Shown piece after piece: positions 55,147 through 62,600 of a stretch of 64,000 nt of DNA. Origin of the DNA: Bacteroidaceae bacterium (GTDB taxonomy: Bacteria > Bacteroidota > Bacteroidia > Bacteroidales > Bacteroidaceae). Under the pieces are notes generated by a model that searched no databases, was not told where the DNA came from, and saw only the letters and a list, made by a program, of their open reading frames with translations. Each line of letters starts with the position of its first letter. Positions within the stretch are counted from its first letter, which is position 1. The stretch lies in assembly GCA_017429525.1 (NCBI GenBank), contig JAFROT010000030.1, forward strand, positions 177,776 through 241,775, given 5' to 3'. The position numbers and the translations under genes are program-made.

Positions 55147-56826
55147 TCAGATGCAAGCTTTCACGAACGACATGAACAAGGGATGCGGGCTGAGCACGGT
55201 GGACGAGTATTCAGGGTGGAACTGCGTTCCGATGTACCATCTATGAGTCGGTATCTCCACGATCTCGACAAGGCCCGTGCCGGGATTTATGCCCACGCAC
55301 TTCATACCTGCTGCCTCATATTCCTCTTTATACTGGTTGTTGAACTCATAGCGATGCCGATGACGCTCGCTGATCTCTGTCACACCGCCGTATGCCTCGC
55401 AGGCACGACTTCCTGCTCTGAGCAGGCAATCATATGCTCCCAGTCGCATGGTACCTCCCTTCTCCTTGATGCTTTTCTGCTCTTCCAAGAGGTCAATGAC
55501 GCCGGCAGCGGCGTCGGGGTTCATCTCCGTGCTGTTGGCATCTTTGTAGCCGAGGACGTTTCGTGCGAACTCTACCACCATCATCTGCATACCGAGGCAT
55601 ATGCCGAACGTCGGGATGTCATGGGTGCGTGTGTACTCTGCTGCGATGATCTTTCCCTCGATGCCACGTTGCCCGAAGCCCGGGCAGATGATGATGCCCG
55701 CCATGCCGTCCAGCCTTTCCGCCACGTTTCCCTCGGTTATCTCTTCACTGCTGATGAAGTATAGCTTCACCTTTACATTATTATAAACACCCGCCAGGTT
55801 CAGGCTCTCGCGGATGCTCTTGTAGGCATCTTGAAGGTCGTATTTACCGACTAGACCTATATGTAACTCGCGGGTAGCACAACGCTGTTTTTCAAGGAAG
55901 TCGTGCCAGGGTGCCATGGCGGGTGTCTCGCCGACGGGTATGCCTGTCTTGCGCAGGATGGCGGCGTCGAGGCCTTGACGCTGCATGCTGACCGGCACCT
56001 CGTAGATGCTTGCCATATCCTCGCTCTGCACCACACATTCCAGGTTGACATTGCAGAACGAAGCCACCTTCATGCGCAATGCGTCGTCGAGGTGGCACTC
56101 GGTGCGCAGCACAAGGATGTCGGGCTGGATGCCCATGCCTTGCAGTTCCTTGACGGAATGTTGGGTGGGCTTCGTCTTCAGTTCATCGGCTGCCTTCAGG
56201 TAAGGAACGAATGTCAGGTGCACACAAACGGCATTGCGCCCCAACTGCCATCGAAGCTGACGGATAGCTTCCATGAACGGCGCGCTCTCTATGTCGCCGA
56301 TGGTGCCGCCCACCTCTGTGATGACGAAATCGAGAGACCCCTCTAAATCTCCCCGTGAGGGGAGACTTTCCTTTCCACAGGCCATCACTGCGCCAGCCTT
56401 ATCCCCTCCCTGACGGGAGGGGGCGGGGGTGGGTCTTTCTCTCAGCATCCTTCGCTTTATCTCGTCCGTGATGTGTGGCACCACCTGGATGGTCTTGCCC
56501 AGATAGTCGCCACGGCGTTCGCGGTCGATGACAGCCTTGTAGATGCGCCCCGTCGTGATGCTGTTGTGACGTGTGGTATGTATGCCCGTGAAGCGCTCGT
56601 AGTGGCCGAGATCCAAGTCCGTCTCCATGCCGTCGGCCGTGACGTAGCACTCGCCATGCTCGTACGGGTTCAGCGTTCCCGGGTCGATGTTGATGTAAGG
56701 GTCGAACTTCTGGATAGTGACCTTGTAGCCACGTGCTTGCAGCAGCTTGCCGATGCTCGCGGCTATGATGCCCTTTCCGAGCGAGGAAACCACGCCGCCT
56801 GTCACGAAGATGTACTTTGTATTCAT
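55147..56826 (-). CDS. pyrG: CTP synthase with a repeat-encoded insertion
   Basis: The 559-residue enzyme aminates UTP to CTP with glutamine. The synthetase domain starts [19 protein letters not shown] and holds the P-loop-like region; the class I glutaminase has the nucleophile motif GICLGMQMM and the terminal His/Glu in QFHPEYSS. An earlier in-frame ATG exists, but it would translate the 22-bp repeats upstream. Between KRRMLRE (residue 130) and [17 protein letters not shown] (residue 165) there is an extra Pro/Gly/Ser-rich stretch of about 30 residues that the family lacks, encoded by two GC-rich palindromes. The insertion lies before a conserved active-site strand, probably in a surface loop, and the reading frame is preserved, so the enzyme is likely still functional. 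Confidence 0.95.
56333..56439. repeat. Two GC-rich palindromic repeats inserted in frame in pyrG
   Basis: TCTCCCC-gtga-GGGGAGA (56348-56365, four-base loop) and CCCCTCCC-tgac-GGGAGGGG (56403-56422) lie about 40 bases apart with 'gcgggggtggg' trailing the second. They replace a family-typical spacer of a few residues with about 35. Close relatives of the second palindrome lie inside gltB. Confidence 0.85.
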
Positions 56827-56843
56827 AACTGTTTTCTTTGCTT

Positions 56844-56909
56844 GATGATGATGCAGCAATTGCTTCATCATGATGCAGCAATTGCTTTATCATGATGAAG
56901 CAACCGATA
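56844..56909. repeat. 22-bp palindromic direct repeats upstream of pyrG
   Basis: Units start at 56850, 56872 and 56894. The first two are GATGCAGCAATTGCTTCATC and the same with one change, each a near-perfect palindrome; the third is degenerate. The 22-bp step equals that of the unrelated array at 10421-10532. The array fills the gap between the porin stop and the pyrG start, so it could be an operator set or simply a mobile repeat. Confidence 0.75.
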
Positions 56910-56910
56910 A

Positions 56911-59358: not shown

Positions 59359-59536
59359 CGTCATTTTGTAAACACAGAGAAGAGTACGGGGTAAGTTTGT
59401 TCGTTGCAATTAAGCTTAGCTTACAAATCACAACTATCGCAGTACATAGCAGCTATTAAACGAAAGAAAAGACACAATATAATATACAATTTGTAACTTA
59501 CAACAAAATATTTATACTTTATTAGGCACCCTTCCA

Positions 59537-59566
59537 TTGCCGTATAAGCGAAAGTTCGTACCTTTG
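59537..59566 (+). promoter_or_regulatory. Promoter of gltB (-33 TTG, 19-bp spacer, -7 TACCTTTG)
   Basis: TTG at 59537-59539 and TACCTTTG at 59559-59566 are separated by exactly 19 bases, the best full match to the Bacteroidetes sigma-ABfr consensus in the window. The start codon is 45 bases further on. The 316-base divergent region holds this, the glnK promoter and the palindrome; the remaining AT-rich middle shows nothing I can name. Confidence 0.75.
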
Positions 59567-59611
59567 CATCGTTTTACAAAAAGAAAGCGCAAACATTGTA
59601 TTAATAACAAA

Positions 59612-62600
59612 ATGACAAAGGATAACGGACTATACAGACACGACATGGAGCACGACGCCTGCGGTGTGGGAATGGTCGTAAATATCCATGGTGGCAAGAG
59701 CCACGAACTGGTGGATCAGGCGCTGCGGGTGCTGGAGCACATGCAGCACCGCGGTGCCGAGGGCGCCGACAACAAGACGGGCGACGGTGCCGGCATCATG
59801 ATTCAGATACCTCATGAGTTCATACTCTTGCAGGGCATCCCTGTCCCCGAGAAAGGACATTATGGCACGGGGCTGGTCTTTCTGCCGAAGGACGAAACGG
59901 CGCAAACTGAACTGCTGGCCATCTTCAGCGAAGAGACGGAGCGCGAAGGACTGAAGCTCGCCCATGTGCGCACCGTGCCAACCAATCCCGACTGTCTCGG
60001 CACCACCGCCATCAACAGCGAACCCGCCATCAAGCAGCTGTTCATTACGGGAGTGGCCGACGAAGCGACCGACAGCCTCGCGCGTACATTATATATAATA
60101 CGCAAGCACGTGGAGCGACGCGTCCGTGAACTCGCTACACAACGTCCCGCCTACAGCGATTTCTACATCTGCTCGCTGAGCAACACAAACATCATCTATA
60201 AAGGTATGCTGACCAGCATGCAGCTGCGACAGTATTTCACCGACCTGCAAAGCCCTTATCTGACCAGCGGACTGGCACTGGTGCACTCTCGGTTCAGCAC
60301 AAACACCTTCCCTACGTGGGCACTGGCCCAGCCCTTCCGCCTGTTGGCACACAACGGCGAGATCAACACCATCCGCGGCAACCGCCTCTGGATGCAGGCG
60401 CGAGAGAGTGTGCTGCACTCCACGGTCTTGGGCGAGGCGTCGGACATAGCACCCATCATCGAACCGGACATGAGCGACTCGGCCTCGCTGGACAATGTGC
60501 TGGAGTATCTCGTCATGGCCGGCCTGTCGCTGCCACATGCCATGAGCGTGCTTGTGCCGGAGTCGTTCAACGACAAGAACCCCATCAGCCCCGAACTGAA
60601 GGCCTTCTACGAATACCACTCGATCCTGATGGAACCGTGGGACGGCCCGGCGGCCCTGCTCTTCTCCGACGGACGTTACGCCGGCGGCATGCTCGACCGC
60701 AACGGTCTGCGGCCGGCACGTTACGCCATCACGAAGAACGGCATGATGATCGTGGCATCAGAGGTCGGCGTGATGGATGTTGAGGCTGCCGATATTGCCG
60801 AGAAAGGGCGCCTGCAACCAGGCAAGATATTGCTCATCGACACCCAAGAGGGCCGCGTCTACTACGACGGCGAGGTGAAGCAACAGCTGGCGGCGGCGCA
60901 CCCCTACGGGCAGTGGCTCTCGACGAACCGCGTCCAGCTGGAGAAGCTGAAGAGCGGACGTAAGGTGGAAAATGGGCTCCCCGACCTGCAACAGAAGCTG
61001 GCGCTCTTCGGCTACGGTGCCGAAGACATAGACGCCACCATCATACCCATGGCGACGAAGGGACAGGAGCCCACGGCATCGATGGGCAACGATACGCCGC
61101 TGGCCGTGCTGAGCGAGCGTCCACAGGTGTTCTTCAACTATTTCCGCCAGCAATTCGCACAGGTGACGAACCCGGCCATCGACTCGATCCGCGAGGAACT
61201 GGTGATGAGCCTCACGGAATATATCGGACGCGTAGGAACGGGCATACTGAGCCCCGACGAGACGAACTGCAAGATGGTGCGTCTGCCCCACCCCATCCTG
61301 GGCAACACGCAGCTGGACATGCTATGTAACATCGGCTACAAGGGGTTCAAGACAATTAAGTTGACATTAGCCCACCCCCAGCCCCTCCCCAAGGGAGGGG
61401 AGACAGATTGGTCTCTGGCTGGTGAAAACCTTAGGATAGCATTGGACAAACTCTGCAAGGATGCAGAGCAGGCTGTGGATGATGGTTATAACTACATTAT
61501 TCTGACGGACAAGGAATGTCCCTCCGCTGGGGAGGGGATGGGGTGGGCTTACATCCCCTCGCTCCTGGCGGTCTCAGCCGTCCACCACTATCTCATCCGC
61601 GCCGGAAAGCGTGTGCAGACGGCACTCATCGTAGAGTCCGGCGAGATCCGCGAGACGATGCACGCTGCCCTGCTGCTGGGCTACGGAGCATCAGCCCTGT
61701 GCCCCTACATGGTTTACGCCATTCTCGACGACCTTGTCAGGCGCGGCAAGATTCAGGAGGACTACGCCACCGCCGAGGCCAACTACATCAAGGCTGTGAA
61801 GAAAGGACTGTTCAAGATCATGGCCAAGATGGGCATCTCGACCATCCGCAGCTATCGTGGCGCCAAGATCTTCGAGGCTGTAGGCCTGAGCGAAGAGGTG
61901 CTGAGAACCTACTTCGGTACGGAGGTGAGCACGATTGGCGGTGCCGGACTCGAGAAAATTGCCAGCGATGCCGTCCGCAGGAAGGAAGGGAATGAAGCGC
62001 TAAAGGACAACGGCCAGTTCCACTGGCGGCGCGATGGCATCCGGCATGCCTGGAACCCCGAGACGATAGCACGCCTGCAGCTGGCCTGCCGCACAGGCTC
62101 GTACGAGAAGTTCAAGGAGTGGGCGCGGCTGGTCGACGAGAAGCAGCAGCCCATCTTCCTCCGCGACCTGTTGGTTCCTGTTACGACCACTGATGGAAAG
62201 GCAGGTGCCATACCCCTTGACGAGGTCGAACCGGAAGAGGAGATTATGAAGCACTTCGTGGCTGGCGCCATGAGTTTCGGTGCCCTGAGCAAAGAGGCAC
62301 ACGAGGCCATCTGCCTGGCGATGAACAAGATCGGCGGACGCTCAAACACCGGCGAGGGCGGTGAGGATCCGTCACGCTTCCACGCCACCGTCGACGGCAT
62401 CAGCCTCAACAGCAAGACGAAGCAAGTGGCCAGCGGGCGCTTCGGCGTCACGACGGAATATCTCGCTAACGCCGAGGAGATACAGATCAAGGTGGCCCAG
62501 GGCGCCAAACCAGGCGAAGGCGGTCAGCTGCCGGGCTTCAAGGTGAATGAGGTCATTGCCCGCACGCGCCACAGCATACCCGGCATATCGCTCATCTCTC

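Follow-up and report, generated by a model that had tools for sequence, protein, structure and literature searches.

We have analysed a 64,000-nucleotide stretch of a Bacteroidaceae genome (assembly GCA_017429525.1, contig JAFROT010000030.1, positions 177,776 to 241,775; hereafter the window) in which GC-rich hairpins lie inside the coding sequences of two essential enzymes, CTP synthase (pyrG) and the large subunit of glutamate synthase (gltB). An initial annotation of the window had described such hairpins once or twice in pyrG and twice in gltB, with the reading frame kept, and both observations hold. pyrG carries a 102-nt element made of two hairpins, gltB carries two inverted units, and both open reading frames (ORFs) run through them without interruption. 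The layout resembles that of REPINs, which are inverted pairs of repetitive extragenic palindromic (REP) sequences. The features concerned are as follows.

55147..56871, minus strand: pyrG (CTP synthase) ORF, open including the insert; a CTP_synth_N envelope (19-308) spans the insert and is followed by GATase
56335..56436, minus strand: 102-nt two-hairpin, REPIN-like element in pyrG, AGACCC...GGGTCT; the reading frame is open through the gene
56398..56436, minus strand: R1 unit of pyrG, with arm CCCACCCCC: CCCCTCCC-GTCA-GGGAGGGG, also written AGACCCACCCCCGCCCCCTCCC-GTCA-GGGAGGGGAT
56335..56369, plus strand: second-type unit of pyrG, TCTCCCC-GTGA-GGGGAGA (AGACCCCTCTAAATCTCCCC-GTGA-GGGGAGACTTT), inverted relative to the R1 unit
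59612..64000, plus strand: gltB (glutamate synthase large subunit), with four Pfam domains, extending past the window end
61368..61405, plus strand: gltB unit 1, a CAAG-loop variant that reads AHPQPLPKGGET; R1 model match of 38.7 bits
61520..61551, minus strand: gltB unit 2, inverted with respect to unit 1, reading PSAGEGMGWAY on the gltB strand

Hairpin inserts in PyrG and GltB

The R1 unit of pyrG matches the covariance model of its family at 60.6 bits, and the second-type unit, slightly altered, also closes inserts at five other loci (L089, L091, L092, L094 and L095; L numbers denote loci, G000 is the window's own genome, of 3.3 Mb and 86% complete, and other G numbers are other genomes). 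The peptide type of the pyrG insert is found again in other proteins. Both gltB units fall within the Glu_syn_central envelope (462-760; Pfam), and comparison with relatives indicates that the 114 nt separating them are native gltB. Unit 2, which by eye lengthens its loop by only about 5 residues, is absent from the R1 covariance-model matches of the own-genome search. Folded as single-stranded DNA, the R1 unit of pyrG is far more stable than shuffled sequence (z -3.65; 0 of 200 shuffles as good), with z values of -2.52 and -2.39 for gltB units 1 and 2, respectively; for almost the entire pyrG element (56338-56440, 103 nt) z is only -1.36, and 20 of 200 shuffles are as good. Within the window alone CCCCTCCC is mildly in excess, occurring 6 times against 2.18 expected, a count that 3 of 100 shuffles reach.

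An ancestral loop shared by all related PyrG and GltB proteins is ruled out by the short loops of relatives. The PyrG loop could be read at 23 of 25 loci (the anchors failed in two), and the region spans 33-36 residues in 17 of these 23 genomes, 48 in G021 and 55-80 in five (G000, G014, G015, G017 and G019), where it is always open and in frame; the loop is short in G001, G007, G009, G018 and G020, among others. The five long loops carry different repeats, namely GC-rich hairpins in G000, G014 and G019 and octamer arrays of the TTGACAAG type in G015 and G017. Where this PyrG has 33 residues, the solved CTP synthase that matches it best, 9kao, has 2. GltB, readable in 9 of 18 genomes, holds a hairpin in both loops in G000, G014 and G015 (L062, L064 and L079); the loops are short in G004, G006, G018 and G032 and slightly longer in G009 and G024. 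Because the loops of the sister proteins are short or filled by other repeats, we conclude that the hairpins are insertions, as had been proposed, and not ancestral loops.

Each of the three species with filled GltB loops uses one hairpin type, inverted around the native segment, and the type differs between species; insertion of pairs or replacement of end types could explain this. When set against chosen short references, the GltB of G015 (L152) shows six insertions of 8 residues or more and the PyrG of G014 shows such insertions in three regions, some of those in the two proteins being not obviously derived from hairpins. We also note, in the PyrG of G017 (L153), a second in-frame insert far from the first that matches a hairpin pair of the GCCTCACCCCC type.

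A dispersed family with in-frame copies in many proteins

The hairpins of pyrG and gltB belong to a dispersed repeat family. Its core, CCCACCCCNNNCCCCTCCC, has 53 exact copies in the window's own genome and none for a reversed-pattern control, and a covariance model built from 29 copies (the R1 model) has at least 143 matches there at E<=1. As only part of the candidates was scored (150 of 1755 in the own genome, and at most 109 in each other genome under stricter filters), these and the following R1 counts are minimum values. At E<=1e-6 the family is present in 18 of 36 other genomes of the genus, with at least 80 copies in G014, 51 in G017 and 20 in G048, and in 0 of 24 genomes from other families of the order. 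Many copies stand in facing pairs, about 69-134 nt from start to start, the arrangement of bacterial interspersed mosaic elements (BIMEs) and REPINs. Among 31 aligned R1 units, AGACCCACCCCC precedes the stem, and no GTAG (or CGTC) tag beside the stem is common to them.

The 109 matches of at least 25.7 bits (of 143, the other 34 scoring lower) form 81 clusters, and in 26 of these a codon-usage test finds coding sequence on both sides of the repeat in one continuous open frame. The test was trained on 19 ORFs (pyrG, gltB and 17 others), some of which it then judged. The remaining clusters comprise 9 with flanks on the same strand in different frames, which probably include plain intergenic cases, 2 in the same frame with a stop, 1 with flanks on opposite strands, 36 with one coding side and 7 with neither. 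Thus 26 of the 37 clusters with both flanks on one strand are in frame, which is above one third (p 5e-6). Repeated in-frame acceptance of the repeats, suggested initially from pyrG and gltB, is borne out, in many unrelated proteins.

Several of these inserts interrupt recognised domains. In the own genome, Pfam envelopes that span an insert are H_PPase (proton pyrophosphatase), HATPase_c (in two kinases), PALP (threonine synthase), Inositol_P (CysQ-like), MFS_1, DUF4861, CTP_synth_N and Glu_syn_central. In UvrA, an MtaB/MiaB-type protein, a TP_methylase-CbiC ORF, an AIR-synthase-like protein and a P-type ATPase, inserts stand instead between domains recognised by Pfam, and some of these ORFs could be fusions of adjacent genes; the other ORFs scanned have domains on one side only or match no Pfam family. 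By way of the PyrG insert peptide we found more such inserts, in FeoB of the own genome, a topoisomerase of G014, an aminotransferase and a helicase-like protein of G017, and UvrA and YidC of G018, and in the sister genomes the envelopes Topoisom_bac and Aminotran_1_2 span inserts.

The initial annotation had also proposed that the repeat is selected to be open in a tolerated frame. Openness and frame preference are indeed seen; the single frame is not, and is replaced by three. We counted 46 intragenic units in 36 clusters (26 from the codon test and 10 added by Pfam), of which 45 could be placed. Sixteen of the 45 are read mostly as PLPSLTGGxGGGS, with the element on the opposite strand, 15 mostly as RPTPxPSRxGGE and 9 mostly as THPxPLPSGRGE, and the other three frames hold 2, 3 and 0. 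This unevenness (p 0.0005 over five open frames, two rare reverse frames being pooled as one) concerns units picked for sitting in open ORFs, so that frames bearing stops were excluded beforehand; it is because the units are unevenly spread that we speak of three favoured frames.

A further hairpin in the window, of a third type, lies at the start of a GH9 ORF:

8251..8285, plus strand: third-type hairpin CTCTCCCCCTTACGGGGGAGCGGGGAGAGGGTCTT at the 5' end of the GH9 ORF; the stretch recurs between two R1 units in L090

Its palindrome, CTCCCCCTTACGGGGGAG at 8253-8270, is expected 0 times by shuffling. The hairpin is thus present as first described; that it encodes part of the GH9 leader is uncertain, since by eye it precedes the likely signal peptide and it may be untranslated.

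DUF559 nuclease genes bounded by hairpins

We have found that hairpins of this kind bound genes for proteins with DUF559, a nuclease domain of the Vsr/PD-(D/E)XK (Vsr/homing) type. The domain is related to known homing nucleases, its profile matching 3hrl (endonuclease-like, E 3.3e-28) and 3r3p (a mobile intron protein, E 6.2e-9), and the PADLOC homing-endonuclease (HEase) model matches it weakly. In the own genome, weak R1 model matches bracket two of the four DUF559 genes, and matching inverted hairpins are apparent there on reading the loci. Across the genus, the best inverted repeat between the flanks of the gene scores at least 20 at 24 of 33 loci (33 of 88 matches listed), compared with 28 of 2000 random intervals, and hairpin ends are visible by eye at all 33; the same score is reached at 9 of 11 further genus loci. 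Named Bacteroidota, including the cultured Hoylesella buccalis and Prevotella veroralis, show the association too; most of their records are from rumen and gut Prevotella or from other Bacteroidales, and judged by these organisms the host of the window looks Prevotella-like. In the named genomes, 53 of the 76 loci with enough flank among the best 80 of 550 score at least 20, compared with 13 of 1066 shifted intervals and 163 of 1500 swapped flank pairs. The ORF lies within a few hundred bases of matching inverted hairpins.

DUF559 elements with ends of the R1 type occur in G014 (L298), G048 (L310) and G064 (L186), so that, as in miniature inverted-repeat transposable elements (MITEs), terminal inverted repeats are common to the short copies and to a putative autonomous element. 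The R1 tail, GGCTGGCGC or GGCTGCGCG, is found at both ends of L186 and at one end each of L310 and L298. A pattern test had pointed to a one-sided R1 unit at the DUF559 gene of G014, which is rejected in that alignment shows R1-type ends on both sides. Another end type, GCCTCACCCCCNNCCCCTCTCC (with at most 1 mismatch), is present in 41 of 61 genus genomes in up to 41 copies, with one reversed-control match in all. Solo copies of one DUF559 end type of the own genome are likewise found within that genome, one of them in frame in an ETF-domain ORF. L159 and L160 show DUF559 as an in-frame 3' fusion to a phosphoglycerate-mutase ORF (612 aa) and, by eye, in one 575-aa open frame with ispG-like sequence.

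The junction behind etfA holds empty, end-only and gene-carrying forms at one site (the names etfA, etfB, acyl-CoA dehydrogenase, ispG, purH and ffh were read from sequence without a Pfam match). Among 29 such loci, 12 have 2-14 nt to the next gene and are empty (G003, G007, G011, G016, G020, G023, G043, G044, G045, G050, G077 and G079), and two more look short by eye. A hairpin pair alone follows etfA in G069, and a DUF559 element does so in G000, G015, G066, G076 and G078. In four of these five, one hairpin type both opens and closes the element at the junction; the second hairpin of the G066 element, which matches the first, stands farther on, beyond the start of the next gene. Three genomes (G004, G012 and G042) have a PF05635 ORF between AT-rich arrays, and the other six loci have longer spacers of other kinds. 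The own genome has two copies of etfA, whose proteins are 92% identical, with a DUF559 element behind the C6 copy and an empty junction behind the C16 copy. By eye, no target site duplication is seen at this one site when it is compared with the empty relatives.

PF05635 (the 23S rRNA intervening-sequence, four-helix-bundle family) thus shares the etfA site with DUF559 in relatives. Matches to it occur in 55 of 61 genus genomes, six of them in G000, and inverted arrays of short tandem repeats flank the genes (loci L349-L378), which makes these a second class of small element. Of 30 loci, 29 have enough flank, and 17 of these score at least 20, compared with 6 of 265 shifted and 21 of 2000 random intervals. 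Like the DUF559 elements, they consist of a small ORF within inverted-repeat bounds; unlike them, they encode an unrelated protein and end in AT-rich short tandem arrays (median arm GC 0.36, against 0.70 at the genus DUF559 loci). In L360 and L363 the PF05635 genes have as their ends octamer arrays like those in the long PyrG loops of G015 and G017.

Repeat arrays also occur in the window. An inverted array of the TTGACAAG type at 50364-50504 (VDELTSGQVNKLDENANNSSTCQLFNSSTIK...) links carA to carB without a break in the open frame, so that the two make up a CarA-CarB fusion ORF, and at 51112-51193 a 9-nt tandem repeat lies in frame within carA (SDYSDYSDYSESSESSDYSELSDY). The CarB part stops after the oligomerisation domain (48649-48700), with a GlmS-like gene next downstream. 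Further short tandem arrays, of the AACGATAACG, TAATGGACAATGG and TTGACGAG types, lie at 109-183, 4787-4849, 36779-36841 and 8111-8212.

Origin and significance of the hairpins

We think it likely that the hairpins come from small mobile elements that carry a DUF559 gene: they would be the ends of such elements, for the most part as non-autonomous copies of the ends alone. A full element would consist of a terminal hairpin (an AGACCC- or AGCCTC-type linker and a GC-rich stem-loop), one DUF559 nuclease gene and a like hairpin in inverted orientation. The nuclease may recognise the hairpin ends, perhaps in single-stranded DNA, and nick or cut there, and repair or template switching could then copy the ends, with or without the gene, to new places with no evident target duplication. 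Insertions into essential genes would survive only where the loop is permissive and the GC-rich element has an open, in-phase frame, and the insert peptide would then be translated as an extension of that loop and tolerated by the folded enzyme.

Several observations weigh against this reading. By eye, four of the 76 named DUF559 loci lack hairpin ends. Proper R1 ends are found on none of the four DUF559 elements of the own genome (86% complete), and G017 (80% complete) has no DUF559 match in spite of its many R1 copies. G064 and G000 each have one weak match to Y1_Tnp, the Y1 tyrosine transposase family, and other REPs of Bacteroidetes are linked, in the available portion of the source, to TnpA-REP transposases (PMC6006769). 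Finally, the correlation between DUF559 identity and end similarity, strong at first across 78 loci (r 0.38; 0 of 2000 permutations), falls to r 0.13 (19 of 2000) once homologous flanks are thinned to 40 loci. Given this loss, most of the correlation may reflect shared ancestry, and little is left of an apparent coevolution of nuclease and ends.

Some of these points would fit a different history, in which another enzyme moves the repeats, while the DUF559 genes hitchhike or, as invaders of the homing type, insert themselves between two inverted hairpins already in place. Entry into hairpin pairs would likewise yield matching ends, a repeat-rich genome such as G017 could then do without DUF559, and relatives of the domain include a mobile intron nuclease, with a weaker relation to homing-endonuclease models. 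We nevertheless consider this unlikely, as no rival enzyme came to light, gene and ends are tightly linked in all three sets of loci (24/33, 53/76 and 9/11), and gene-carrying and end-only forms occur at the same site behind etfA.

A separate rival takes the hairpins as REP/REPIN elements mobilised by RAYT (REP-associated tyrosine transposase, or TnpA-REP), a Y1 tyrosine transposase. Inverted hairpin pairs in high copy number are what it would be expected to leave, Y1_Tnp matches occur in 22 of 61 genus genomes, among them R1-poor ones such as G009, G012, G016, G041 and G042, and TnpA-REP subclasses with REP-like structures are described from Bacteroidetes in the accessible part of PMC6006769. 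Against this, there is no match in G014, G017, G018, G044 or G048, the R1-rich sister genomes (at least 20 copies each). The match of the own genome (L031, G000:C5) is partial (47 of 121 positions, 22.7 bits) and lies about 1.7 kb from the nearest R1 match, and its flanks have no inverted repeat above background (score 11.5). No RAYT gene bounded by R1 was found in G000 or the five R1-rich genomes, all of which are incomplete, the flanks of 27 other Y1 matches having been left out. With no tag common to the aligned units either, we regard RAYT as a very improbable mobiliser of R1. The Y1-like protein of L031 is itself a 433-aa open frame that contains a proline/glutamine-rich repeat stretch.

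Two further explanations do away with insertion or with its effect on the protein. Ancestral or slippage-grown low-complexity loops, similar by composition only, could be thought of in that GC-rich units are open in most frames and some loops in the genus are simple tandem repeats; the recurrence across the genome, within genes and outside them, of the same sequences of 30-100 nt, and the short loops of relatives, make this extremely unlikely. We give next to no credence to excision of the inserts from RNA by RNase III, in the manner of 23S rRNA intervening sequences, such that the proteins would lack them: the hairpins are strong and the PF05635 elements of the genus encode the protein family of rRNA intervening sequences (Coxiella IVS, as far as the source text available to us goes), yet the inserts retain both openness and phase, neither of which excision would need, and RNase III cutting, again according to the available text, leaves fragments and would break an mRNA.

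Among the closest known systems are the Rickettsia palindromic elements (RPEs) and the Wolbachia palindromic element. RPEs comprise several families of short palindromes inserted in frame in unrelated genes, as the accessible parts of two sources describe (PMC10969869; PMC3733652), and the likeness to them that was first suggested is apt as regards the mode of insertion: R1, too, is a palindromic insert found in frame in unrelated genes. It differs in belonging to another phylum, in its GC-rich inverted hairpin pairs and in a DUF559 gene bounded by like ends, and the same parts of these sources name no enzyme for RPEs or other protein-coding palindromes. In 2013, GTAG/CGTC-tagged REPs and REP dimers were described inside genes, uvrA among them, many encoding 20-30 residues, and CGTC repeats are also known from Bacteroidetes (PMC3733652, available portion); R1 differs from these in the lack of a common tag and of a Y1 match in R1-rich sister genomes. 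With the REPIN-RAYT system, as set out in the available part of PMC6006769, R1 shares inverted REP pairs and a gene between REP ends, a DUF559/Vsr-type nuclease here taking the place of the Y1 tyrosine transposase. In-frame palindromes are thus already known, from Rickettsia and from other REPs; the DUF559 partner appears to be new, in that the open-licence literature accessible to us yielded no published link between DUF559 and hairpins. Vsr-like homing endonucleases are distantly related to DUF559 in sequence, and no splicing element was seen at the DUF559 loci. One of these endonucleases, 3r3p, we take from its entry name to be borne by an intron.

The inserts would be a case of selfish DNA that adds sequence to working proteins, and the findings point to a candidate for the enzyme that may mobilise it. 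DUF559 provides a testable alternative to the Y1 transposase for REPs, and this offers a role for a domain of unknown function. The inserts also amount to a ready-made set of natural loop insertions, several of them at one site across species, in CTP synthase, glutamate synthase, UvrA and other essential enzymes. More broadly, we lean towards the view that many Bacteroidota REP hairpins have a DUF559 nuclease as their autonomous partner. The element would be minimal and transposase-free (hairpin, small nuclease, inverted hairpin), and its end-only copies would spread through essential proteins as in-frame loop inserts. On this view the unrelated PF05635 class, with its inverted tandem-array ends, has converged on the same loops and junctions, which in this genus would then be shared landing sites for competing miniature elements.

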